From the IMG/VR virus record IMGVR_UViG_3300012039_000031, positions 1 through 20,156 of that record: 20,156 nt of DNA; one strand, 5' to 3'. This document shows positions 1 to 19,156 of the stretch, piece after piece. The notes under the pieces were generated by a model. It was given only the letters and a program-made list of their open reading frames with translations. It searched no databases and was not told the origin of the DNA. The translations under genes and the position numbers were made by a program. Source of the DNA: a virus. Each line of letters starts with the position of its first letter. Position 1 is the stretch's first letter.

Positions 1-660
1 GAAGAAGGGTTCGATCCCACCCTGATTCATCTTACCACTTGAGGAGTATTCCTGGTACAGTTTCTGGGCCAGGTTAGTATCGTACTTATCCAGGGCGGTG
101 ATGGCTGCAACCCGCTCGTAATTGGAATTGGCTTCATCCAACATCAAACGTATCTGGCGTTCCGAACTTTGACTATTCTTTGAAGCGTTACGGACAATGG
201 AATCCACGAACCGACTTATCATATCGAAGTCCATGTCTCCCTGCTGGTACATCTGCCCACCCGCGTGAAGTTCAGTCCACAGTTTAGTTGCAGCTAATGG
301 ATCACGTTTCATCACATCCTTTAGGATGAGGCGCTTCTCGTCATTAGTTGATGCGGATCGGATTGCTGATTTAAGCTGTGAATAGGTACCTGATGTATCA
401 TTGCCCTTGTAGATGGAGTCCACGAACTGCTTAACCATGGTCTCATCCATCTCACTCTGGAACATCTCCCCTCGTGAGCGAGCCTTCTCCCAGACATCCA
501 ACGCAACCATCTGGTCGTATTTAGTGGCTTCCTTGATGAAGGCACGCTTCTCTTCGTTGGATGAGGCATCCATGATGGAGTTTCTAAGCTGACCTGCAAA
601 GTCATACTTCTTGTTACGATACATGGCCCCCACCATTCTCTCAATCATATCCTGATCCAG
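1..660 (-). repeat. Three ~71-codon tandem repeats in the giant protein
   Basis: The protein encoded here repeats a unit of 70, 72 and 73 residues (nt 451-660, 235-450, 16-234), and a fourth may begin at the edge. The shared pattern is M(D/I)xxM(V/I)xxFVDSI at the start, then a Leu/Ile-rich stretch, a (T/S)NxEKR-like turn, KYD or KRD, AxxLW(E/T)E, and SxGxMxQ at the end. The units are diverged at protein level and not obvious in DNA. Each probably folds as a small helical module. Confidence 0.8.
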
Positions 661-3600
661 GGACTGGCTGAGGAGCGGGTTGCTCTTTATTAGATGAAGC
701 AGCTGGGCGATGTCCATCGACCCTTCCTCGCCCGGAACGAAATGAATAATGTTCATATCCACTCCACTGGCGGCTGCCCAAATCCGGGTCATATCATAGA
801 TATGTCCGGCCTCCTCTTTGCTGGTGAATATTCCACCCAGCAGTTTCAGGAATCCTTCCTTGTCATTCATGCCCGTCACGGACTGGTGATTGTTAATGAG
901 CTTCAGGATTTCTGTTTCGTTAATATTGATGCCGCTGTTATTGGCAAGGGAGCGAATGGCAAAGGAGTTGGCCTTCGGGATCTCGTCCAGCTTGGCACCT
1001 GTGAAGGTGCGGTCAAGGGTTGAGAGCATATCCAAATCCATCTCGCGCGTCATGACATCGCCTTCCAGTATGTTCTTATACGGCTTGGCAATGTAGTCAC
1101 GGCGGAAGTTCATGAAGGTCTTCTTAAGCTTCGGGTTCTCTGTTACGCCATTCTCCACCCACTTGGTGAAGATGTCGGCGAAGTGTTCACTCTGTTGTGT
1201 GGATAACTTGTTACCAATCACCGCCTCATTGCTGAGCTTGGTAATCATATTGCGAATGGTGCGAAGGTCTTCAACAGCCCCGGCATCTCCATGCTTGGCA
1301 AGGAATGTCAGGTCTTCATAGAACATCTGGCTCATCTGTGCGGTCAGGCCTCGGAAGTTCTGCTGCCCAAAACCATAGAATACGAAGCGCTCCGTACCAT
1401 CCTTCACGCCCGTGCGGGCAAGTTGTAATCCTTCGTTAATGGTAAGGCTGCCTTCCATGCGCGCAAATCCCAGGCGTCCCAGTAGTTCTTCCATCGGGAT
1501 TCCTGAGCGGGCGGACATCATATCCACATGTTCACGAATGGTCAGGGCATAGGCGCGGCTTTGAGGTACGGTCAATCCAAATGAATTAACCAGGGCGCGG
1601 CTCATCTGGTCGATGGCAGACATGTTCGGATCGAGCAGCCTGTTTGCATCCACCATGACGGTTGTGTCACGGCTCAATGAACGCCGGGCATTCGGAGAGA
1701 AGAACGATTCCTCCATCTGCTTGGTATCCCACTTGGCATAGATTGGGTTGGACTGTGTCGGACGTCCCTTGGCAATGGAGCGATCGCCCAGCTTGAAGCT
1801 GAACTGCTCAACCCCACCGTCAATGTTCTTGGTAACGGTAAAGCCCAGGCTCTCCAGGTACTTCTCGGAGAATTGCTGGTTGAATTCCATAAGGATGCGT
1901 TTAGCTTCCTCCGGATTTTGAGATTGAAGAACCTTCAGTATCTCACGATTACGAATGGCAGAGCGGTCGTATATCTCGCCCTTCATTTCCCAGAATGCTC
2001 TCCATACCTTATCCTTCTTTAGTGCGGTAAGGCCGCGAGCCTTGAACGGGCCCGGGAAGTTGTGATACATGAAGTCGGCCAGGTTGCCGTCAGCCACAAA
2101 CATATGTGCTAAATAGTTTTCAAGTTCCTTGACCAGTTCCGGGTCATTGAACCTATCCTTGATAATATACTCGCGCAGTTCCAGGGTGCTGAGGGCTTTC
2201 TGATTACCCTTGACCATGATCTCTGGAGGGGTCTTGGAAAATTGGGCGTCAAGGTCATCAACAGCCCGCTTCCAATCCTCACCGACCAGATCGTAGATGT
2301 TCATTCCGCTGCGGTCGAGCATGCGCGTCCCCTCAAACGAAAGCTTCTCACCTTTTAGGTTTTCGAGAATGGAGCGCATGTGTGTGTCATCCGTTAGCTG
2401 TCCAGCTACAATAAGAAATAAATTCTTATCCTTACGCAGCAATTCTACGGGGCCGTTATGAGTCATGAACATATTATATGCAGACACATAATCATCCATT
2501 GAGGCTCCAACGCTGTCCAGCAGGGCATGGTCGATGGTTCCTTTGGCTTTGATGGTACCCTCGGTCAGGGCGGTGACCATTTCCTTGCGGGTTCCCTTCA
2601 TCAGCTCTTCGCCGATGGCAATGGAAACCTGCCCATCCACCATGGATACTGTAACTTCCTTTCCAGGAACCAAACTTGCAGCGCCATATGGTTCCATGGC
2701 TCGTGCAAAGTCCTGCACCACTTCTTTGTAGTGACGACTTTTATGTTTCAGGGAGCGGGCGGCCAGGGTCTCTGAGCTGGTGGCGGGTTTCGTGAATGCA
2801 GTATTTATCTTGTCCATCAATCCTTTGATGGTGAAGTTGGGGGTGTTGCGTGCAACCTTCGGGGGAGAAGGCCTAAGATTGGGGCGGATAATGCCGGCAA
2901 TCATGTTCGCAACTTTCTCCATGGTGGGGGGTTTATGCGAAACATCCGGGGCTCCGAACCCATCCACATTTCTACCCATCGTATCACTGGAATCAGAGAT
3001 GCGCTGTTGGATTTCGTTCTGAACGGCCTTCATGTGGTCGTCGATGAACTTGTTGACATCCTCTTCTGTAATGCTGCGGCCAGCTTTCTTGATTGAATCC
3101 AGGTTACGCTCGAACCTGTCTCCAATATCAGCCAGGAATACCTGCTTCTCCTGTGCTGTAAGGGCGGCCATTGATTCATCTACATCCTGACCGAACAACA
3201 AAGACCAGGACTTCTCCTTCATCTGGGCAGGGGTCAGTTTCGTGCCATCGGGTGCAACATCTGAGATGATGTTGTCGACCATGTCGGCCATCTTGGATGG
3301 ATTGTTCCCTGATTCATCCCAAATCTGCATGGCGAGTTTCTTAACCGTCGGACTAAGATCTTCTGTACCCATGTTCTTGAATTGCGGAGACAGGGTATCC
3401 AACAGCTTGAAGTATTCGCGCGAGAACATACGCAAACGAACAGTAAATTCGATTGCGGTATTGAAATCAGATGACGCTCCTGGGATTGCGGCAATGCCGG
3501 CCCCAATACCGCGCATTAATCTGCGGGCGGCCTGGGATGCCGGACTTCCATCCAGTTTGGAAGCCATCATCTTCTGCACAATAGCGGGAAGTTCCTCTAT

Positions 3601-6600
3601 ATTGCGGGTTCCCTCTTCCATGATGCGGTCATACTCATATTTCCACCAGGAGTAGGGGCCCATTAGAGGCTGGAAGCCCTGGTGCAGATAACGGGAGGTA
3701 ACAGTGTAGGCTTCATCCTGTCCCTGTCGTGCCAGGTTCTGTCCAAGCTCCAGGGGGATGTCTCCAAGCTTCTTGGCGAGACTGGAGTGCGTACCGAACA
3801 TGAGCATGAACATATCTTCCAGAGGGTTGCCCCCGAAGAGGAAGCTTCTGCCTGTGGTGTCGATTAAGTTCTGGATATACCAGCGCGGATTCATGGAGAG
3901 TACAGCCATGGCCCATAGCTGGTACGCATATCCAGTGGCCTGGTGTACATCTTCCAGGGAACTGGCTATCTTGGTGGCTTTTGCGCGAGTCTTGGAATTC
4001 ACTTCTGTGCCCAGGGAGACAATCATCTTGTTGATTGTATCTCCGAAGGAGAGGTGCCCCTTCTCCACACCCGCCCTCATCTCACTCCACAGTACGGCCT
4101 TCTGCCTGGAGGTCATACCTTTCTTCTTAATGTTATATACCTCAAGCATGTGCTTGTAGGCTTCATCCTTCCCAAGCGCGTCTTGAATTCTCTTAAAGGC
4201 GGGGAGATGTTCCAGGTCGTCACCCAACATGTATATCTTCTGCACGAGCTGACCAAAGAACGTATCCTCAAGCAGGGGGCTGGCGTTGCCGGTGATGTCC
4301 TGCCTCACGCGATGAGACGAAAGAAACGATTTCTTGAATTCCTGAGAGAAACGGGCGATGATGTTGGAATTCTTGGTCGGATCCGATGCAGTATCGGACA
4401 ACTCACGAGCAATCATCTTCTTATATTCGTCATCAGAAACCTTAAGCTTCATGCTCCTGATTTGATGCTTGACCTGGTGTTCGGCGTTGCGGAACATCTC
4501 CTGCTCGGAGGCAGATACAGCTCGCTTATACAGATCAGTCCACGTGGAGGGATCAATACCACCACCTTCCACATTGGTGATGTCCCTTAATTTCTTAAAG
4601 GTGTTGTACGATAGATTCTCCATGCCTGGGAGGTAATCTGGCAATCCCTTCGTGGAGACAGATTCAAATATTTGTCGGGCTTCATCATCGCTCTTCCCCA
4701 GGGCCCGTCGTAAAACATCCCCTATTACAGGAAGAGCTTTCTCGAAGGATTCTGCCTGACCTGAGTAGGCCTTCACCACCTGGAGAAATGCACTGTTGAC
4801 ACTGTTGCCTATCTTTCCGCCAACAGAAGAAGCGGATTCACGTGCAAGCCATCCGACTACTGGAACCTTGTCTATAAAGCTTGAAAACGATTCCTTGAAT
4901 ATGGTGCGTACACCTTTCATTCCAGGAAGGACTTCATCCAAAACTCCGAGACCTGGCAGGAAGTTGGTAACATCGAACATACTTTCCGCAAGCATCTCTG
5001 TTCCTGGGTTTGAATACTCCTGTTTCAGGGTGCGAACTTCCGCGTCCGTTGGCATTCTTCCAGTCTGGATAAGGAAATGTGCCACGGCTAAATCAAACGC
5101 TTCCTTGCGCCACGGCTCACGATCCCATGTAGCGGCAGCCCGAGGGTCATGCTCTTTCAATGCATAGGTAATGTCAATGGCCTTCTGTGCGTCAGCCACA
5201 ATGCCCTGCTCCAGTTTCTTTCGTTCCCCTTCCGTCATTGGGCGCTCGTACATGTGGTCTTTCTTCAGATCCTCTATAATATCTTCGCGAGCCAGAGATA
5301 GGCCGCCGCGATGAATCCTATCAATGCGGGCGGCTTGCACCTCGGCGTCTGATGGTTCGTAGGGAACCGTTTCGCGGGTATCATAGGAGAGGCTTGAGTA
5401 TAAAGAGTCCAAATCAGTACCACTCAAACCATACATCTCATCCATCTTCTCACTGATTTGCTTGAGAGTGGGTTCTTCGATGTTGGCTCGATACAGGATG
5501 GAGAACACTTCATCCGCAGTGGCTCCTGGATAGTCCTTCATTGCAGCCTTTAGTTGTTCTGCCGTGGGGATGCGGGTATTCTCTTCGATGATCGCATATT
5601 GAGCATCAGTGACGCTTATATTCGTACCTCGTGGAAGGTCGTTGCTCTCCACAATGGCGCGTTCCAGGTCATTAATGGTCACATTCCCATAGGTAGTCGT
5701 TGTCATGAGTTCAGACACGGTACCCTTGTTCATGGCCTTTATCTTATCGGCCATTGACTTCTCCAGGGTATCCGCTTGAAGAGTCATGGCCTTTCGTTCG
5801 TCTGGGTTTATCGTGTAGGCGGGAGTAAATAGGCTCTTCACCGTTTCACCAATTAGGTTGGCTCCGTAGGAGAGACTTCTGGACGCGCCTGATAATACTG
5901 CGTTGGGGTCGTACTGTCCGCGCGCGGTATCCGCTTGTGCGGCAGCTCTTGAATTCACTCCAGCCTGACGAATGACATCCGCCACTTTAGCAAACGATTT
6001 GAATGTGGCAGTTCTGGCGTCTTCAAGGCGCTGGTGGTCGGAGAGCATCTTCTTCTCCTGCTCCTCCAGCAAGTTGAGCTTCGCCTGGGCCATTACCTTA
6101 TTCTCTTTCATTGCAAGGGGATTGGCGAGAATTGAATTCAGGAGTTTGCGGTCTCGCTCAATCTTAGCCGGGGATTCAAACCTGATTGGTGACTGAATTA
6201 TAACTTTACCAGTTTTAGCATCCCGCTTTATGGGCAGGTCAATTTCAAAACTGTTACTGATGGCCTCGCCAATCAACAGCCCTACGTTCATAGCGCTTTG
6301 CAGGATGGCGGTAGCCGGGCTTGCGTTACGTTCACTGAATACGTATTCAACCTCAACAGGCCCCATGGCAAGATAAATGGCATTCTTATTTAAGTTTAGG
6401 GTAATGTTCTTCAGGGCCAGTCCGGCCTTAATCTCAGCATCAGACTTACCCTGCGCGCGCATGGCATTAATTAGTTCCAGGTCTGAAGTCGGCCTTCCGG
6501 CTTCAGTCAGGAATGGAACCAAATGCTCATAGTCCACGCTCTTGGTTTCTTCATCAATCGGGGCAACCAATACCTTATATGAGTTACCGAGAATGTCATT

Positions 6601-7203
6601 CTCAATATCATCTGCGGTAGGAGCGGTAAAGTCGGATCCTCCAATTTCACGTCTCCACCTGTCCCGTATGTTCTCCATTGTATTTCCTTCAAACTCATCA
6701 ACACTCCCCAAAGGAGCTCTATATCCAATGGGCTGGTCAACAGATTCAGGGCGCTGTGTTCCAACCTGTGCTGGAGTTAACGACCCTGGAATGGATGTCG
6801 GAGTAAGGGAACCAGTGAGTGAATAGGGAACCACTGATGTTGAAGGGCTCGCACTCAAGCTTGATATGATGGAAGCAAAACCAGGCCTCGCCCAAAATGG
6901 GGAGGCCTCGGAAGAAGCTGCGGCGGATACGGCAGGTATGTAGCCTGAGGGAGGGCGGGGCGGCCCAGCCACGGCTGACGTGGTTCTGGGAGTTACTCCC
7001 GAGGATCTGCCTCTATTGGTTATGCTGGCGAGGGTGCGTGCGGATGGAGCCGTTAAGGGAGTAACGCCTGCCGAGCGGCTGCGGTTGGTAATACTTGAGG
7101 GGGTGGCTACTTCAGTCTTTCTTGCCGCCTCATCCATCAACCTTCCGGCGTGTCTTACTTTCCCACTGCCGTAGTCCCGTAACGACTTATACTTTTTTGC
7201 CAT
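1..7203 (-). CDS. Giant virion-type (polyvalent-like) protein, 3' end beyond window
   Basis: I read this frame codon by codon from ATG at 7203 to base 1 and found no stop: at least 2401 residues. The start follows a GAGGAG site and lies just after the 56-aa gene. Residues ~1-170 are rich in S, T, P, A and G and look disordered, with a repeat (SITNRxRSxGVTP). The middle is largely helical and charged, with a stretch near residue 1104 (NPRWYIQNLIDTTGR) like phage large polyvalent proteins. Residues ~1940-2040 resemble the phage-associated zincin family, including STQQSEHFADIF, but the HExxH site reads AQMSQ. Three ~71-aa repeats follow from residue 2182. Its place downstream of portal suggests a virion component, perhaps ejected with DNA or an internal head protein; that role is inferred. 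It could also be a tail-associated protein. C-terminus not seen. Confidence 0.85.
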   Translation of the reverse strand, partial: MAKKYKSLRDYGSGKVRHAGRLMDEAARKTEVATPSSITNRSRSAGVTPLTAPSARTLASITNRGRSSGVTPRTTSAVAGPPRPPSGYIPAVSAAASSEASPFWARPGFASIISSLSASPSTSVVPYSLTGSLTPTSIPGSLTPAQVGTQRPESVDQPIGYRAPLGSVDEFEGNTMENIRDRWRREIGGSDFTAPTADDIENDILGNSYKVLVAPIDEETKSVDYEHLVPFLTEAGRPTSDLELINAMRAQGKSDAEIKAGLALKNITLNLNKNAIYLAMGPVEVEYVFSERNASPATAILQSAMNVGLLIGEAISNSFEIDLPIKRDAKTGKVIIQSPIRFESPAKIERDRKLLNSILANPLAMKENKVMAQAKLNLLEEQEKKMLSDHQRLEDARTATFKSFAKVADVIRQAGVNSRAAAQADTARGQYDPNAVLSGASRSLSYGANLIGETVKSLFTPAYTINPDERKAMTLQADTLEKSMADKIKAMNKGTVSELMTTTTYGNVTINDLERAIVESNDLPRGTNISVTDAQYAIIEENTRIPTAEQLKAAMKDYPGATADEVFSILYRANIEEPTLKQISEKMDEMYGLSGTDLDSLYSSLSYDTRETVPYEPSDAEVQAARIDRIHRGGLSLAREDIIEDLKKDHMYERPMTEGERKKLEQGIVADAQKAIDITYALKEHDPRAAATWDREPWRKEAFDLAVAHFLIQTGRMPTDAEVRTLKQEYSNPGTEMLAESMFDVTNFLPGLGVLDEVLPGMKGVRTIFKESFSSFIDKVPVVGWLARESASSVGGKIGNSVNSAFLQVVKAYSGQAESFEKALPVIGDVLRRALGKSDDEARQIFESVSTKGLPDYLPGMENLSYNTFKKLRDITNVEGGGIDPSTWTDLYKRAVSASEQEMFRNAEHQVKHQIRSMKLKVSDDEYKKMIARELSDTASDPTKNSNIIARFSQEFKKSFLSSHRVRQDITGNASPLLEDTFFGQLVQKIYMLGDDLEHLPAFKRIQDALGKDEAYKHMLEVYNIKKKGMTSRQKAVLWSEMRAGVEKGHLSFGDTINKMIVSLGTEVNSKTRAKATKIASSLEDVHQATGYAYQLWAMAVLSMNPRWYIQNLIDTTGRSFLFGGNPLEDMFMLMFGTHSSLAKKLGDIPLELGQNLARQGQDEAYTVTSRYLHQGFQPLMGPYSWWKYEYDRIMEEGTRNIEELPAIVQKMMASKLDGSPASQAARRLMRGIGAGIAAIPGASSDFNTAIEFTVRLRMFSREYFKLLDTLSPQFKNMGTEDLSPTVKKLAMQIWDESGNNPSKMADMVDNIISDVAPDGTKLTPAQMKEKSWSLLFGQDVDESMAALTAQEKQVFLADIGDRFERNLDSIKKAGRSITEEDVNKFIDDHMKAVQNEIQQRISDSSDTMGRNVDGFGAPDVSHKPPTMEKVANMIAGIIRPNLRPSPPKVARNTPNFTIKGLMDKINTAFTKPATSSETLAARSLKHKSRHYKEVVQDFARAMEPYGAASLVPGKEVTVSMVDGQVSIAIGEELMKGTRKEMVTALTEGTIKAKGTIDHALLDSVGASMDDYVSAYNMFMTHNGPVELLRKDKNLFLIVAGQLTDDTHMRSILENLKGEKLSFEGTRMLDRSGMNIYDLVGEDWKRAVDDLDAQFSKTPPEIMVKGNQKALSTLELREYIIKDRFNDPELVKELENYLAHMFVADGNLADFMYHNFPGPFKARGLTALKKDKVWRAFWEMKGEIYDRSAIRNREILKVLQSQNPEEAKRILMEFNQQFSEKYLESLGFTVTKNIDGGVEQFSFKLGDRSIAKGRPTQSNPIYAKWDTKQMEESFFSPNARRSLSRDTTVMVDANRLLDPNMSAIDQMSRALVNSFGLTVPQSRAYALTIREHVDMMSARSGIPMEELLGRLGFARMEGSLTINEGLQLARTGVKDGTERFVFYGFGQQNFRGLTAQMSQMFYEDLTFLAKHGDAGAVEDLRTIRNMITKLSNEAVIGNKLSTQQSEHFADIFTKWVENGVTENPKLKKTFMNFRRDYIAKPYKNILEGDVMTREMDLDMLSTLDRTFTGAKLDEIPKANSFAIRSLANNSGININETEILKLINNHQSVTGMNDKEGFLKLLGGIFTSKEEAGHIYDMTRIWAAASGVDMNIIHFVPGEEGSMDIAQLLHLIKSNPLLSQSLDQDMIERMVGAMYRNKKYDFAGQLRNSIMDASSNEEKRAFIKEATKYDQMVALDVWEKARSRGEMFQSEMDETMVKQFVDSIYKGNDTSGTYSQLKSAIRSASTNDEKRLILKDVMKRDPLAATKLWTELHAGGQMYQQGDMDFDMISRFVDSIVRNASKNSQSSERQIRLMLDEANSNYERVAAITALDKYDTNLAQKLYQEYSSSGKMNQGGIEPFF

Positions 7204-7209
7204 GAATGA

Positions 7210-7388: not shown

Positions 7389-8132
7389 CTATATGAACAG
7401 GTTCTTGTTGGGCGAGCCGTAATTGGTTCGACCGTTATATTTGAATGTATCTATCAGAGGAGTGCCATCAACTGTTGGGTTGATGATAGCGCGTCCAAGT
7501 TCCACATAGGACGAATCGGCTGACTTGGAAATGTCGCCGAACTCCTTCATCATAGCGGCGTAATTAGCGCGGCTGATCCCTCCTTCTGCGTTGGAATACT
7601 TATCCAACAGAAGAATGGTGTTCTTCAGGAATTCGTAATCGGAGCCGACGGGAACTGAACCGGATGCCGCCTCCATGGATGCTAGATTTGACAGGGCAGT
7701 TTGAGCCCTTTCCTTGGAGAACATTTGACGTCTCAGGGCGGACGTGCTTACTGGAGCGGTTCGTCTCTGGTTAGCTGCTGTTTCCTGCTCTGAGATTTTA
7801 TCATAACCAAATCCAGTGAAATTGGATCCCAGCCACTTTCCAATGCTTGACGCTTCCGTATCTGTTAAGGATGGTATCAGGGCATTGGCGGAATTAGCGA
7901 GCGTTTCATTGCTTCCTGACGAACCATATGCAAGAGGCCTCCACCAACTTCGGCTGGAGGGGGATTGGGGCGTATAGAGAGTCATACCTTCCGGGGCAAC
8001 ATACGTACCCCTTCCAGCGGATTCCGCCGTCGGGGGAGTGGCGAGGGCGTGGGGAGCAAATGGAGAATCCTCCCCGGGTTTCTGGCGTCTGGGCGTTCCA
8101 TCCGCTCTTAGTTTATTTTTTGGATCAGCCAT
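7389..8132 (-). CDS. Hypothetical protein, 247 aa, probable virion protein
   Basis: ATG at 8132 has an AAGGAG site and overlaps the end of the 65-aa gene by 8 bases. It ends in TAG at 7389. The first ~75 residues are rich in P, S, T, A and G and look disordered, as does the start of the giant protein two genes downstream. The middle and C-terminal part (from about residue 125, with RRQMFSKERAQTALSNLASM and SDYEFLKNTILLLDKYSNA) is helical. No catalytic motif, signal peptide or membrane segment is visible. The place in the terminase-portal operon suggests a structural or head-assembly role such as scaffold or internal protein. That is inference; I do not recognise the family. Confidence 0.8.
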   Translation of the reverse strand: MADPKNKLRADGTPRRQKPGEDSPFAPHALATPPTAESAGRGTYVAPEGMTLYTPQSPSSRSWWRPLAYGSSGSNETLANSANALIPSLTDTEASSIGKWLGSNFTGFGYDKISEQETAANQRRTAPVSTSALRRQMFSKERAQTALSNLASMEAASGSVPVGSDYEFLKNTILLLDKYSNAEGGISRANYAAMMKEFGDISKSADSSYVELGRAIINPTVDGTPLIDTFKYNGRTNYGSPNKNLFI

Positions 8133-8323: not shown

Positions 8324-10174
8324 TTATACTCCTGTCATGGAGGGGCGTTCAGTTGCCATGGTGTTCTGAACATCCGCTGCCGACCTTCCTGCAATCTCCC
8401 CTCCGACTGCCTGGGGTACCGGCTGTCCACTCTGGGTGGGCTGGCCCGATAGTTGGGCAGGAGAGGTGGGTTCGGTAGGACGACCCTGTGGATTGGCGAC
8501 GCCGCCATTGTTCAAGGCTTCGAGGGTCTTGGCTGCTACTGCATCACCAGACTCTGCGCGCTTGGTAAGTTCACGTCGAACAGCGTACTCCACCGAGGCG
8601 GGGTGCTGTGTAACCTTTTCCATGAAGATGCGCTCTTCCTCGTCCTCTGGCTGTTCAATGTCCAGGAACATTTCCATGATCTTGTAGTTAGACAGCGTGC
8701 CTTTGACCTGGGAGGCCATGGCGACTTTGCGCTGTTGTTCATTGGGGAATGTCGGACGAACTTCCGCGCGTATCTGGTATCCTTCCAGGGCGCTGATCTT
8801 CACATAGTCGACGTAGTCAGTCCCACGCTGGTGACCATACACGCAAATGCTGGTATCCTTGGCGAACTTATCCAGCAGGGAGAGGGTCTTCTTGGCCCAG
8901 GCCGTGAACAGAAGTTCAATGTGTTTGATGGGCTGCTCCAGTCGGATGCGATTCTGGTCTCCCAGTTGTGCCATCGCATACCCAGCGGCATCCCCATTTC
9001 CCTGTCCGAACATTACATCGGAGAAACCGGATTGCTGAATACGGGAGCGCAGGAAGTCCATATGCATTTGAAGATCCGGAGCATTACCGGGCCAGGTCGG
9101 AAATTCAATGCTTTCATCCGGGGAGATGGATACGTGATTGTAGAGTCCCGGATCAATATTTATCTTACGCCCAGGCTGCGTCTTGGTGACAAGGGGAAGT
9201 CCCGTGTAGACATCAATCTGGTAGGCGCGCCGATTAAAGGAGCGCTCCAACAATGCAACACTATCTTCCAGGGGTGAGAGAATGCTCTGCCATTTGCTGG
9301 GGTCTTTCCCAGTTGGCTTATAAAACTGTACGCTGTAGGGCAGGTCTTCGTACCCCATCATAATGTTGGGGCCGCGCAGGGGAATCTGGTCGAACATTGC
9401 CGTGTTACGGATTGCCATGTGTTTTACTGATGGCTGTGGTTCGCCGCTTTCCTCTGTGGGTTCGGGGGAGGGGGTTTCAAGAGTTACCCAGTCCCACAGG
9501 TCGACGAATGTTCCAAGGGTTGTCGCCTTTTCATATTCACCGAGGTGTGCAAACTTGGGGAGCTTGACCCCATAAAGTAGCTCCACATCCAATACAGACA
9601 TGGATTCTTCCCTGCCAGCGACAAGCCACCGTTTGGGGCCGCCTGGCAGGCAGAAGAACTTTATGGGGTCAATGACTTTCACGCACATGGGCACTTCTTT
9701 GAAGAGCCAGTACGCTTCAGAGCCGTCTTCGGGCTGAACCATTTCGCGCGAGCGTGCCGCTACTTCAGGATCAAACACCGAATACAGAATCCCGCCGCCG
9801 TCGCGTACGAAATTCTGAAATAGTTCGAAGCGCTGGTATCGTTCCTCGCGCTCATCATTGGCAGACAGGATACCTTCAAGCAATTTTTCTATCTTGCCTG
9901 TATCCTTTTGTTCCGCGTAGGTTGGGGTAAATCCAAAGGCATGCCAGCGTAATTGGTTGGCAAGCATGATGCCGACTGCAAGATCCACCGTGTTTGTAAA
10001 TGTAGGATCGGAATATTGGATTTCTCGCTTGCCTGGGAGTTTGGCATAATGTGCCATTTCATACAGCCGCTGCCATCGGGCGATGTTGGTGCGCCAGTCC
10101 TTGACATATTCCACGGCCCTTTGGTATTTCATCAACACATCCAGAAACTGGTCTCGTTCTATTTTATCTTCCAT
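8324..10174 (-). CDS. Phage portal protein, 616 aa
   Basis: This is the best candidate for the portal, the dodecameric ring at the head vertex through which DNA is packaged and released. It starts at ATG 10174, seven bases after the terminase stop, with a GAGGAG site. The length is normal for a portal. Portal-like traits are the helical N-terminus (ARWQRLYEMAHYAKLPGKRE), the alpha/beta wing-like middle, a long helical stem region (LEDSVALLERSFNRRAYQID), the loop VMFGQGNGDAAGYAMAQ before a helix, and a Pro/Gln/Gly/Ser-rich tail over the last ~60 residues. Its place directly after TerL is the standard order. Identification rests on these features and context, not on a search. Confidence 0.85.
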   Translation of the reverse strand: MEDKIERDQFLDVLMKYQRAVEYVKDWRTNIARWQRLYEMAHYAKLPGKREIQYSDPTFTNTVDLAVGIMLANQLRWHAFGFTPTYAEQKDTGKIEKLLEGILSANDEREERYQRFELFQNFVRDGGGILYSVFDPEVAARSREMVQPEDGSEAYWLFKEVPMCVKVIDPIKFFCLPGGPKRWLVAGREESMSVLDVELLYGVKLPKFAHLGEYEKATTLGTFVDLWDWVTLETPSPEPTEESGEPQPSVKHMAIRNTAMFDQIPLRGPNIMMGYEDLPYSVQFYKPTGKDPSKWQSILSPLEDSVALLERSFNRRAYQIDVYTGLPLVTKTQPGRKINIDPGLYNHVSISPDESIEFPTWPGNAPDLQMHMDFLRSRIQQSGFSDVMFGQGNGDAAGYAMAQLGDQNRIRLEQPIKHIELLFTAWAKKTLSLLDKFAKDTSICVYGHQRGTDYVDYVKISALEGYQIRAEVRPTFPNEQQRKVAMASQVKGTLSNYKIMEMFLDIEQPEDEEERIFMEKVTQHPASVEYAVRRELTKRAESGDAVAAKTLEALNNGGVANPQGRPTEPTSPAQLSGQPTQSGQPVPQAVGGEIAGRSAADVQNTMATERPSMTGV

Positions 10175-10181
10175 ACTCTCC

Positions 10182-11747
10182 TCAATCTTCCATTAGTTCT
10201 CGTGGGAATTTGGGCATCAAGTCCTTTGGCCCGTAGTCTGTCATGTTCGAATAGGGGGATGTCATGGTAACCGGTATGCTGATGTCAACCCCGCCGTTCT
10301 TCACGGCATCGTAACAGGCCATTGCCAGGGCGACTGCCCCGTCGACGTGATGTTTCTTCATGGCCTTGTTCTTCACGATGCGGAATCCGTTTGCATTTGT
10401 TTCCGCCACAGCCATCTGAAGATGCTTGCGCAAATCCTCGGCTGGGTACATTTCAAGATTCTTATTCTTCAGCAAATCAAAAAGTAGTTGCGAGGCCGCT
10501 GTCATTGCGGGGGCGGTCTGCTGAAATGCGGTCACGGGGAACCCTTTCCCTTTGAGCCGATACATCATCTGCATCAGATGCTTGGGGTCGTAGACAATGG
10601 AGGACACCGTAAACTTATTATACAGTTCCACGAGCGTTTTTTCCACCTGATCTAAATCAATTTGCTCCGATTCGGAGGGTGTCCAGATCTGGTGATGCAC
10701 CACGCCGACCTTGCCACGCTTACTATCGTACCCTACCATGACCAGGGCGGTGCAGTCCTGTACGATGCCTGCGTCCAATCCTATCGTGATCGGCCACTGA
10801 GCGAAGGGGTGTTCCTCCCACAGGCTTGCGTCTGCCGGGTAGGCCTTCATGGCCCTATCCACCCATTCGATCGGGATAAAGCTTTCCTGGCTGGTCACCC
10901 ACTGATTCATATGCAGGCGCAGGAAGGCGGAGGGGCGCTCGGCTTTCATGGCGCTCTCGTAATATGCTTCCGTCTGCCAGGGCATGGTCGGTTCGTGTGT
11001 CCAGTACGTAATTAGATTGCCGTTGCGCCAGATGGGCATGTCTTCCATTCCAGGAATTCTCTCTCCCTGTCCAGCGTCATGCTCATCAACCCCCACCCCT
11101 CGCAGATACATTTCCCACAACAAGTCGGATTCATTTTCGAATCCTGCGTAGGTCGAGATGAAACGCAGGGAGTTGTTGACGGTCGGGATGGGGATCATTT
11201 CGTCCCATACACGACGGTCAAGTTCCGACGTAGCGCCCCATAGTTCGTCCCATAGAGTCAGGGAGTGGCGGGAGCCTGCTACGGACTTATACGATTGACC
11301 CAGTACCTGAATGAAAGTCCCATTGGCAAATTCAATCCGATACTGGGTGATGTTGACATAATTGGCCTTGTTACGATTGTCAGAGTATTTCCCCTCCAGG
11401 ATGCGCTGTTCGAAATGAAAGCGAATATCCCGGAACAGGCGTCCTTCACCTGCTTCGAGAGTATTGGCGATCACATAAATTTCAGTTCCATCGCGGGCCT
11501 CCTCCGCATACCAGCACCCCACTGAAGATCCCATACAGGTCTTGCCGGATTTCTTGGTGGCGGAGTAGAGCACGGTCTCGTATATCAAGTCCCCTTCCTC
11601 GTCCATCTTCAGGGCTTCGGATAGGATGCGTCGCTGCACGGGCTGAAGAACCATCTTGCCGATGCCCTTCATCTTGTGCTTTTTCTCGTCCCATGAATCC
11701 CTGATCCAAAAACATTCCTTCTCGATCCATTCCAAATAACTACGCAA
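10182..11747 (-). CDS. terL: Terminase large subunit (TerL), 521 aa
   Basis: This is the ATPase-nuclease that cuts phage DNA and pumps it into the head. The Walker A variant is at residues 62-70 (SATKKSGKT), Walker B at 163-168 (LTLWDE), and a coupling-type motif (FISTYAG) is near 197. The RNase H-like nuclease shows its three acidic positions at D325 (IGLDAG), D387 (IVYDP) and D469 (HHVDG). The start is TTG at 11747: an in-frame TAA lies two codons upstream, and a GAGG site stands six bases before it, so TTG is the only sensible start. It overlaps the methyltransferase end by 8 bases. No small terminase gene is recognisable beside it. Confidence 0.95.
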   Translation of the reverse strand: MRSYLEWIEKECFWIRDSWDEKKHKMKGIGKMVLQPVQRRILSEALKMDEEGDLIYETVLYSATKKSGKTCMGSSVGCWYAEEARDGTEIYVIANTLEAGEGRLFRDIRFHFEQRILEGKYSDNRNKANYVNITQYRIEFANGTFIQVLGQSYKSVAGSRHSLTLWDELWGATSELDRRVWDEMIPIPTVNNSLRFISTYAGFENESDLLWEMYLRGVGVDEHDAGQGERIPGMEDMPIWRNGNLITYWTHEPTMPWQTEAYYESAMKAERPSAFLRLHMNQWVTSQESFIPIEWVDRAMKAYPADASLWEEHPFAQWPITIGLDAGIVQDCTALVMVGYDSKRGKVGVVHHQIWTPSESEQIDLDQVEKTLVELYNKFTVSSIVYDPKHLMQMMYRLKGKGFPVTAFQQTAPAMTAASQLLFDLLKNKNLEMYPAEDLRKHLQMAVAETNANGFRIVKNKAMKKHHVDGAVALAMACYDAVKNGGVDISIPVTMTSPYSNMTDYGPKDLMPKFPRELMED

Positions 11748-12468
11748 CGGTTACCTCTATTTGTGTATGCTCAGAGATGCGGACATTCTTAACCTCATAT
11801 CCCGCCGTCTTGCACAGGTTGTGAAGTACCCAGGGTTCAAAGTGATAGAGATGGGCGAGACGCCATGGGCCTCCCTTACTTGTCATGGATGGAACTTCTA
11901 TCAACAGAGTTCCGCCTTTTCGAAGGTACGGCTTAAGAGAAGTCAAAGTCTCCAGGGGGTCGGTCACGTGTTCCAGAACGTGGATCATGGTAATGAGATC
12001 GAAATCTCCCACCAGCAACTTCAGACTATCCACCACGGGAATTCCCTCCACAGCATATCCAGGATTCTCATCCACTCCCTGAATCCCGCAATTAAACGCC
12101 TCCCTCGTAGCATTTAAAAGATACCCACGAGAACAGCCAATATCCAGGTGACGAGTTGGAGCCCGTCCGAGTTCCTTGGCAATTCGAATGGATCGGCTCA
12201 TTTCATCCCCATCCACATCCATGCCTTCCATATACTTACGATAATGACCTTCCGAATAGTACGCCCCAACAGAATCATCAGACATGCGGGGATTTTGGAA
12301 TATCAACCCACAGCTCAGGCATCTGTCGTACTTCACCAGCACAGCCACAGGCAGGACTGCATATCCAAAATCCAGGGTTACCATGGGCTTTGACATAAAA
12401 CTTCCCACGGGGGACTTGCCAAAACACCCACATACCGGACACTTCTCCAACGAAATTAATTCATTCAA
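11740..12468 (-). CDS. Zinc-ribbon class I SAM methyltransferase, 242 aa
   Basis: Residues 10-53 hold two Cys pairs (CPVC and CLSC) typical of the zinc-binding front domain found on sugar C-methyltransferases and related enzymes. The SAM-binding Rossmann part follows: motif I at ~107-115 (HLDIGCSRG), acidic residue after strand 2 (GVDEN), and the HVLEHVTDP motif at ~163-171, as in the Methyltransf_23 type. Start is TTG at 12468, six bases after a perfect AGGAGG; the nearby ATG is out of frame and hits a stop at once. The substrate cannot be told. Proteins of this build often act on sugars or small metabolites, so modification of a surface glycan is possible, but DNA or protein is not excluded. 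Its position between a cargo-like gene and TerL is unusual. Confidence 0.88.
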   Translation of the reverse strand: MNELISLEKCPVCGCFGKSPVGSFMSKPMVTLDFGYAVLPVAVLVKYDRCLSCGLIFQNPRMSDDSVGAYYSEGHYRKYMEGMDVDGDEMSRSIRIAKELGRAPTRHLDIGCSRGYLLNATREAFNCGIQGVDENPGYAVEGIPVVDSLKLLVGDFDLITMIHVLEHVTDPLETLTSLKPYLRKGGTLLIEVPSMTSKGGPWRLAHLYHFEPWVLHNLCKTAGYEVKNVRISEHTQIEVTVA

Positions 12469-12607
12469 CTTCCGCCTCCTGTTTGATGGTTACTTTTGTG
12501 ATGACATCCAGGCAGTTGTCACACTGCCAGACTTCCTTGTATTTGGTCTTTTCAATGAGCGCCCACTTGTCGTGACGCTCATATACACATCTACACCATG
12601 CCCACAT
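12461..12607 (-). CDS. Cys-rich mini-protein, 48 aa
   Basis: ATG at 12607 comes one base after the stop of the upstream gene and has an AAGGTG site. The protein starts MWAWCRCVYERHDKW and has a second Cys pair in WQCDNCLD, giving a CxC plus CxxC layout that could hold one zinc ion. It overlaps the methyltransferase start by 8 bases and carries that gene's AGGAGG site, so the two are likely coupled. Being short and aromatic-rich it may be a small zinc-ribbon adaptor. No family is recognised. Confidence 0.7.
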   Translation of the reverse strand: MWAWCRCVYERHDKWALIEKTKYKEVWQCDNCLDVITKVTIKQEAEVE

Positions 12608-12608
12608 A

Positions 12609-13529
12609 TTAGCTCACCTTAATCCAGTCTGGGCTCATTATGTAGTGGAACCAATTGTTATACACCCCGTTGGTCTTGCCGACCCCATGCGGAAGATGAG
12701 ACAGCCACCACTTATGATGGGCGATGCGTGAGCCGCACCCCCACTCCGTGTGATTGACGGTCTTGGTAATTCCACGCATCTCGGGATAGTTCTCCCAATC
12801 GTCACAGCTTGACAGGACATAGCGGTTGTTCTTCCAGTCGTAGTCCGTCAGGGAGTTGGGCGCGTAGTGCGCGGTGCCGACACCTGCCCCGTTGGGGGTT
12901 GTCTTGTCGATTGCCGTAAAGCGGTTCCACGAATGATACATCGGGGGGTGCTTGGCATAGACCATGGTCATGATGGCTTCCGCACGGTGTATCAGGGACT
13001 CGAGCATGGCCCCCACATCCTGGGAATAATCAAATCCCATGACAGGGAAGCGTCTAAGGGAGTTTTCAGTGTCCTTTAGGGCGGGGCCTGTCAACCATAT
13101 CGGACTGGGGCCGCCCATGACCGCCTCATGAAACCCTGAATGGGGATAACCCATCAACCAGACCTCGTCGATCTCGCGGCTGGCTACCTTGCGGACAATG
13201 TCGTACTCTCTTAGTGTGTATAAATAGTCAAAATAACAAAAATAGAACTACATCTTCCCAAACAGAACCTTTTCCAGGTCTGGGGTGCGGTAGATGAAGT
13301 CTCCATACAGGCGGGTCGGCGAAGAAATCATTTCTTCAGACACAATCTCATATTTATAGGTGTGTCTTGAGGTTTCCCATATCAGATTGACGTATTCCTC
13401 GACCAATAGGGAGGGATCGTTGTATCCCATGGATAGATTCAAGTCTTTCCCAGACTCCATAATCGGATTCCAGGTCAATAACATGACCTTCTTCACCTTG
13501 GTATTGATAAACACCCTGTCTTCGCTCAT
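12609..13529 (-). pseudogene. Amber-interrupted gene of a conserved bacterial-type protein (~305 aa)
   Basis: One reading frame runs from ATG 13529 (SD AGAGGAAG, ATGA overlap with the gene before) to TAA 12609, broken only by TAG at 13248-13250. Before the stop there are 93 residues (VKKVMLLTWNPIMESG..., MGYNDPSLLVEEYVNLIWE). After it the same frame goes on as FYFCYFDYLYTLREYDIV, EIDEVWLMGYPHSGFHEAVM, VMGFDYSQDVGAMLES, HYAPNS, CDDWENYP and KWWLSHLPHG. From memory these blocks occur in this order in one family of bacterial proteins of unknown function, so both halves belong to one gene. A separate start at TTG 13157 would lose part of the conserved EIDEVWL block. It is either a decayed gene, a readthrough protein or two split pieces. 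Other genes here end in TAG (methyltransferase, 247-aa gene), so TAG is not generally reassigned. Confidence 0.7.
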
Positions 13530-13738
13530 GTTATCTTCCTCTCCTGCACGTGAACCATCAATTCCCTCCCAATCTCGACAAAATTCCAACCCCATCCCCG
13601 TCTTTGGCAGCGCAGGTAGAGGTTTTCCCTTACCCTGTGACACTCTTCGGGGGTCTTGAAGGTAATCGAAGGATATTTTTCTAGCCAGAGACGCCAACGG
13701 AACGTCCAGAAGACGTCTTCGGTAGTTCGATCGGTCAA
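13526..13738 (-). CDS. Small hypothetical protein, 70 aa
   Basis: The protein is rich in Trp and Arg (VFWTFRWRLWLEKYPS, CQRRGWGWNFVEIG) and ends with a TGA sharing an ATGA overlap with the amber-interrupted gene. The preferred start is TTG at 13738, which overlaps the TGA stop of the 35-aa membrane peptide (TTGA), matching the coupling pattern of this operon and the TTG starts of TerL and the methyltransferase. A GTG at 13780 would give 84 residues but has a poorer SD site and lies inside the upstream gene. Function unknown; no membrane segment. Confidence 0.65.
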   Translation of the reverse strand: MTDRTTEDVFWTFRWRLWLEKYPSITFKTPEECHRVRENLYLRCQRRGWGWNFVEIGRELMVHVQERKIT

Positions 13739-13842
13739 TGCGACCCGAACCAGAGACCTGCGGCGAAGATGATGAGCCACAAAACGGCCCCCAACTCCAT
13801 GCGCCTGGCAAACCCAGGGATGTACACGCGTCGTTTATTCAT
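13735..13842 (-). CDS. Single-helix membrane peptide, 35 aa
   Basis: ATG at 13842 overlaps the TGA of the preceding 36-aa gene (ATGA). The peptide has a basic start (MNKRRVYIPGFARRME) followed by one membrane helix (LGAVLWLIIFAAGLWFGS). That layout predicts an inner-membrane peptide with its N-terminus in the cytoplasm. With two other small membrane proteins in the same operon it could take part in lysis or membrane changes late in infection; this is inferred from place and shape only. Confidence 0.65.
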   Translation of the reverse strand: MNKRRVYIPGFARRMELGAVLWLIIFAAGLWFGSH

Positions 13843-15084: not shown

Positions 15085-15477
15085 CTATTCGGGTGTTTCG
15101 TCGTCGTTGCCATTCTCCGGGTGATTGCCGGGATCACAGCCTTCCGCGCCATTGCCCGAACCTTTATTGCACTTTTCCTTGTCATCACTGGCGGGCTGTG
15201 TCTCTGTGGGCTGTGGGACGATTACAGGCGTGTTGTCAGTAATTACGGGAATTATGACGGTCGTGTCAATTATGGCGATTACAGGCCCGCTTGACGCGAC
15301 AATAACAGGCAATTCCACATCATCACTTGACGGGCGGATTACGACGGGCGAACCGTGTGAAGGGACAATTCCCGCACCATCGACAGGGGTCATCATGGCG
15401 TGAGCGGGGAGGACGAACACGAACGCCAGTACTACGGCGATTAGAGCGGACACGATTGAAAGGGTGAGTTTTTTCAT
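15085..15477 (-). CDS. Secreted protein with signal peptide, 130 aa
   Basis: ATG at 15477 follows AAGGA. Residues 1-27 (MKKLTLSIVSALIAVVLAFV to AHA) are a clear Sec signal peptide with predicted cleavage after AHA. The mature part has a run of PV-I blocks (SPVVI, LPVIV, GPVIA, IPVIT, TPVIV), spaced about 8-20 residues apart, which look like short beta-strands. The C-terminus is acidic and Gly/Asn-rich with two cysteines in KCNKGSGNGAEGCDPGNHPE. From memory GNG-x-CDPGN tails are seen in bacterial surface proteins, so this may be cargo acting on the host surface, such as exclusion of other phages; that is a guess. It has its own promoter and terminator, so it is a separate unit and could be expressed in lysogeny. 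Confidence 0.82.
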   Translation of the reverse strand: MKKLTLSIVSALIAVVLAFVFVLPAHAMMTPVDGAGIVPSHGSPVVIRPSSDDVELPVIVASSGPVIAIIDTTVIIPVITDNTPVIVPQPTETQPASDDKEKCNKGSGNGAEGCDPGNHPENGNDDETPE

Positions 15478-17918: not shown

Positions 17919-18008
17919 TGCGGGATAAAGTAGTCTGGTCATGCTTACGGGTCTCATAAACCTAGTGCACCCTAATAGGTGTCGGAGGTTCGAATCCTCC
18001 TCCCGCCT
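17919..18008 (+). tRNA. tRNA with CAU anticodon and long variable arm
   Basis: The acceptor is TGCGGGA with TCCCGCC (six pairs; pair 1:72 is T-C), followed by discriminator T. D-stem AAGT/GCTT has a GG-containing loop. Anticodon loop CTCATAA has CAU at 17955-17957, with stem CGGGT/ACCTA (three strong pairs, one wobble, one mismatch). T-arm GGAGG-TTCGAAT-CCTCC is perfect. Between anticodon stem and T-arm are 19 bases that can form their own stem (CACC/GGTG), as in class II tRNAs. Loop and D region resemble initiator tRNA-Met. The 3' CCA is not encoded. It may serve initiation, Met, or Ile after lysidine modification. Confidence 0.8.
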
Positions 18009-18252
18009 CAGCGTTATCGAACTCCCAATGGCAATTGGGACATAACGTCACCAGGTTGTCGATGTGGTTAATGATATTTAATGTATCGGCGTCAGATGCA
18101 CTTGAGACTGACTTGATATGGCATATTTCAACGTGCTTGTCATAACCACATCGACATACCCAGGGCTTTCCACTTCTAGTGTAAACCCTCTCAGCGTGTT
18201 TGCGTATGCTGCTGAATATGTATGTCCCCTTGTAAGGAGGTAAACATGAAAG
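17962..18252 (-). pseudogene. HNH endonuclease remnant, 5'-truncated
   Basis: The minus-strand frame reads FSSIRKHAERVYTRSGKPW, then CRCGYDKHVEICHIKS, then NHIDNLVTLCPNCHWEFDN. That is the C-terminal HNH nuclease domain with its zinc knuckles (CxC and CPNC) and the H, N and H motif positions. The frame has no ATG, GTG or TTG start, and the upstream stop at 18253-18255 leaves no room for the usual N-terminal DNA-binding part. After the domain the frame runs antisense through the CAU tRNA (GGGFEPPTP) and stops inside it. It is best read as the remnant of a homing-type endonuclease that once lay beside the tRNA. Expression is unlikely. Confidence 0.75.
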
Positions 18253-19061: not shown

Positions 19062-19134
19062 GTCCCGTTCTTCTAGAGGCTTAGGAAACAGCCCCCTCAA
19101 GGCTGTAACAGGAGTCCGAATCTCCTACGGGACA
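19062..19134 (+). tRNA. tRNA-Glu (CUC anticodon)
   Basis: The acceptor GTCCCGT/ACGGGAC (7 bp), D-arm TTCT/AGGA with GG in the loop, anticodon stem CAGCC/GGCTG and T-arm AGGAG-TCCGAAT-CTCCT all pair. Sequence closely follows bacterial tRNA-Glu (TCTAGAGGC, GGCTGTAACAGG). The loop reads CCCTCAA with anticodon CTC, which reads GAG. Two oddities: position 33, nearly always U, is C, and the T-loop starts TCC instead of TTC. CCA is not encoded. GAG codons are common in the phage genes here, so it may support translation. Confidence 0.88.
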
Positions 19135-19156
19135 CTGTACCAATAAGGAGGTACCA

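Follow-up and report, generated by a model that had tools for sequence, protein, structure and literature searches.

An in-frame amber codon in a phage copy of an unnamed protein family found mainly in Chloroflexota

The window, by which we mean the whole stretch of DNA analysed, is a linear virus record of 20,156 bases and represents an incomplete genome. In it, an interrupted gene lies upstream of the terminase large subunit (terL) and portal genes and beside a methyltransferase gene (Table 1). Translation confirms the sequence-only reading in that the frame from the ATG at 13529 to the TAA at 12609 is open save for one TAG: it consists of 93 codons, the TAG, 212 codons and the TAA, with no other stop. 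The ATG is preceded by a Shine–Dalgarno-like sequence, GAGAGGAAG. In-frame starts 3' of the TAG are a TTG at 13157 and an ATG at 13154, both past the EIDEVW motif, in agreement with the earlier view that no other start before this block is convincing. At the 1–7203 end of the window, a 2401-codon stop-free frame runs off the sequence, and some stretches of it have relatives among the frames that follow the portal gene in contigs L119, L120 and L124.

Table 1. Features of the window around the interrupted gene, with the evidence for each.
Feature	Position	Strand	Evidence
Interrupted gene, 306 codons counting the TAG; its protein family is unnamed and found mainly in Chloroflexota	12609..13529	-	Translation, homology, model
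In-frame TAG, codon 94 of 306, in a loop at a position where the family varies	13248..13250	-	Translation and alignment
Pre-stop part, 93 codons, with model strands 11–20 and 58–68	13251..13529	-	Translation, model
Post-stop part, 212 codons and TAA, with most family-invariant residues	12609..13247	-	Family alignment
Possible internal start, GAGGT 7 nt before ATG 13154	13152..13166	-	Sequence; strands from model; inference
Small upstream ORF, 84 aa, with an ATGA overlap with the start of the interrupted gene	13526..13780	-	ORF and sequence
Short downstream Cys-rich ORF (MWAWCRC...CDNC), whose start lies at the TAA that ends the interrupted gene	12464..12608	-	Sequence
SAM methyltransferase (PF13489), TAG-terminated	11740..12468	-	Pfam domain, stop check
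Terminase large subunit (terL)	10182..11747	-	phrog_9, 6.8e-45
Portal protein	8324..10174	-	PHROG portal family; 60% identical homologue adjoins terL in L124

A first alignment (A1) was seeded with two hand-written family-like sequences and served as a search probe only; later results come from database sequences, and the family is defined by alignment A2. A scan of GTDB genomes guided by a profile found 80 loci, nearly all in Chloroflexota, that encode relatives of the joined frame, with 35–46% identity over residues ~13–304 and E-values to 1e-76; 83 of 400 Chloroflexota genomes had a family match. The alignment of these relatives stays in one frame through codon 94, and the spacing of the motifs flanking it is constant to within a residue or two. 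As the relatives align straight across the position, the open extension past the stop is not a product of chance, and the comparison supports the interrupted gene being one gene of one mainly Chloroflexota family, much as the order of its conserved blocks had suggested to the sequence-only reading. In the full-length alignment, the window protein carries the family motifs in their order: EIDEVW, MGF, MLExxxHRxE, H-APNS, DYDW, W-P, EWG, HHxWW and NNW. An active member needs a single uninterrupted frame, which the TAG at codon 94 breaks here, and on the aligned sequences we claim membership by descent, not for an active product. The family has no model in Pfam, NCBIfam or PHROG; searches of Pfam, NCBIfam and PDB sequences gave no function, and by eye no common partner is obvious among the neighbour genes of bacterial members at eight loci.

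None of the 80 relatives has a stop at codon 94, and the aligned column lies in a variable loop, with G in 40 relatives and a gap in 29. Internal stops flagged in four relatives (L014, L024, L027 and L067) are located at gene ends. A bacterial relative, L114, has an unrelated in-frame TGA at the invariant W263; single broken copies thus do occur in assembled genomes. We also considered, and set aside, a compensated frameshift at the AT-rich patch, where by eye neither of the other frames yields the family's HxPD motif.

An AlphaFold2 model of the joined frame, with the TAG entered as a placeholder residue, forms one domain, predicted with confidence (mean pLDDT 95.1, pTM 0.91). Strands 11–20 and 58–68 precede the stop, strands 122–127 and 161–167 follow it, and codon 94 itself falls in a loop. 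As the stop thus divides the core strands, it is improbable that either part alone would make up a domain. The post-stop part retains E177, H181, R182, E184, H221, H271, W274 and W293. A viral fold search with the model gave nothing significant. Metalloprotease domains of ADAM/ADAMTS proteins recur as weak fold matches (Foldseek E about 1e-3, TM at most 0.41), and VIA-align comparisons to them reach Z up to 7.0 with an rmsd of 4.0 Å over 170 residues, a range common for unrelated folds. The HExxHxxGxxH motif of these metzincins is absent from the window protein, whose conserved helix instead reads E177-x3-H181-R-x-E, and we take the predicted likeness of fold as a lead only.

The same model bears on the possibility of gene fission, with the two parts made separately and associating, the second from the internal ATG at 13154. 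The GAGGT upstream of this ATG would suit such a start; the five bases are, however, also the codons of a conserved E-V pair. As judged from the model, a product begun there, past EIDEVW, would lack strands 11–20 and 58–68 and most of 122–127, and codons 95–125 would be left untranslated though conserved. No relative split into two separate genes was found among the 80 loci, nor were the halves seen as independent proteins among the relatives examined; homologues of each half that stand alone were what the sequence-only reading had named as its refutation. We consider fission highly improbable.

The part downstream of the stop does not look abandoned. Its mean identity to the family is 0.444 against the 0.498 predicted from the pre-stop part (residual sd 0.046), and it keeps 50 of the 65 sites conserved at at least 95% but only 23 of 74 weakly conserved ones. 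By these sequence measures, it is not clearly more decayed than the pre-stop part predicts, which bears out the earlier remark that the rest of the gene is undecayed, and the far better retention of strong sites than of weak ones argues that selection shaped the downstream part until recently. On the other hand, the window protein sits on a long branch, as does the phage protein L083, and residues 64–103, around the stop, are its least family-like stretch; together, these suggest that some older relaxation of selection is possible.

Relatives of the phage itself were collected with a terminase alignment search of IMG/VR, which gave 79 loci. The closest by portal are L124 and L164 (IMGVR_UViG_3300044712_001178 and 3300042876_000399; terL 62% and portal 60% identical to the window), whose sequences, from two metagenomes, are identical but for 1 base in 17,554. 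In both, the family homologue is an uninterrupted ORF of 254 aa at 6201–6965, upstream of terL. No family match was found at the other 77 terL loci in the DNA examined around them, and in a profile search, the gene was absent from six of eight whole records. Given its apparent absence from other terL relatives, the gene seems to be accessory in its phage group and its loss tolerated; the word "conserved", applied to it in the sequence-only reading, holds for the bacterial family but not for the related phages, where it is sporadic. Scans with a single protein as query gave no matches in viral contigs, phages or plasmids because the phage copies, later found by alignments, are too diverged. No second copy turned up in a pattern search that covered the surroundings of the stop and left the TAG codon free, though near records may be hidden from it.

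In a more distant phage (L083), the family copy stands among a B12/radical-SAM protein, a nucleotide-sugar epimerase, a galactosyltransferase-like protein and terL, and in L117, a terL relative in a Chloroflexota assembly, nearby ORFs by eye resemble sugar-nucleotide and transferase genes. Going by such neighbour genes only, one might guess at a role in surface or glycan modification. Two further arrangements were seen in other contigs. At 7206–8708 of L084, a phage contig, a 500-aa protein combines an apparently exported N-terminal region with a family-related stretch (HFAPNSASDYDW), and at 6424–7170 of L125, a related contig, terL is interrupted by an insert that keeps the frame and has intein-like ends, beginning CLTPDTK and ending VSDGYCSHN before T.

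A stop within an otherwise intact phage frame raises the question of the genetic code. TAG could encode an amino acid in this phage, a reassignment known from some crAss-like phages (PMC11210395), and one in-frame TAG in a late-operon gene is what points that way. Yet TAG terminates the neighbouring 7389–8132, 11740–12468 and 15085–15477, and reading past the methyltransferase TAG would add 85 aa out of frame inside terL. The 2401-codon frame contains no internal stop, and the other late genes have no TAG in about 4,100 codons; at the usage of CAA, a minor sense codon (42 of 4,439), TAGs would number tens in the late genes. The many in-frame TAGs in late genes by which table 15 is recognized are thus not seen in the window. 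The nearest relative, the 50-kb G410, is about 90% coding under table 11; it carries the coding-density evidence, as the values for the window, L124 and L120 are unusable with their open-ended genes uncounted. Phages using table 15 gain much coding capacity with TAG as a sense codon, and about half of them (52%) carry a CUA suppressor tRNA (PMC11210395). The sequence-only reading had argued from the neighbours' TAG stops and the TAG-free giant gene that a genome-wide code change is unlikely, and we reach the same conclusion; for reassignment of TAG in this phage, we see next to no chance.

The tRNAs of the window have CAU and CUC anticodons only, as do those of G410, while the 62-kb relative G406 has no tRNA. 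The CAU tRNA, at 17919–18009, is 91 nt long with a long variable region; a CAU tRNA of 78 nt is present in L124, L164 and G410. The tRNA-Glu (CTC) at 19062–19135 has the anticodon loop CCCTCAA, which would place a C at position 33, near-universally U in tRNAs; G410 likewise has a tRNA-Glu (CTC).

Short of a change of code, the stop might be functionally suppressed or read through: a suppressor tRNA of host or phage or a leaky UAG would let some of the protein be made at full length, perhaps as a minor product under regulation. The selected look of the downstream part and the position of the stop in a loop with length differences among family members are both compatible with this. However, no CUA tRNA was found in the window, itself part of an incomplete genome that may carry a suppressor tRNA elsewhere, or in G410 or G406; no structured RNA was found at or after the stop (z 1.46 and 0.35 against shuffles); the nearest phage copy is uninterrupted; and no second phage with the same TAG is known. 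We regard functional readthrough as unlikely. That the amber codon has been kept as a switch, a low level of readthrough providing a small full-length amount from a two-product gene within a standard-code operon, appears very unlikely.

We consider the TAG best explained as a nonsense allele that is particular to this contig and affects an accessory phage gene, either recent or an assembly error, and put the probability of this at roughly 0.77; within it, a real mutation takes about two thirds of the weight and a sequence or assembly error about one third. The sequence-only reading had left the stop as recent, suppressed or read through: since the closest phages carry an unbroken copy and no CUA tRNA was found, the evidence favours a recent mutation or a sequence error over the other two options. 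Under the nonsense-allele explanation, a phage of probable Chloroflexota hosts would have acquired a gene of the unnamed single-domain family, placed upstream of terL beside the methyltransferase, and codon 94, in a tolerant loop, would have become TAG, probably not long ago. Read with the standard code, the gene would then yield a 93-residue fragment unable to make the fold and presumably inactive, so that the gene would be off in the window genome, or in the majority base of its assembly.

One nonsense codon in a phage contig from a metagenome is of little import by itself; its use is as a verified case showing that recoding does not have to lie behind an in-frame TAG. A widespread Chloroflexota family without a Pfam or NCBIfam model, captured by phages whose terL lineage has relatives among contigs of Chloroflexota genomes, may matter more than the stop. 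With the members of that family (e.g., L003, JADFRG010000031.1), the window gene shares the single-domain architecture, the motif order and nearly the full length; the bacterial members, however, have an unbroken frame and, as a rule, an extension at the N terminus, whereas the window gene is broken by the TAG. L124 and L164 belong to the same phage group and carry the gene on the same side of terL, but their copy is diverged, without a large share of the stretch surrounding codon 94 and without the residues aligned to E177, H181 and H221. The crAss-like phages using table 15 have in common with the window a TAG inside a phage gene, but in them it is frequent in many genes (PMC11210395), while the window has one such TAG.
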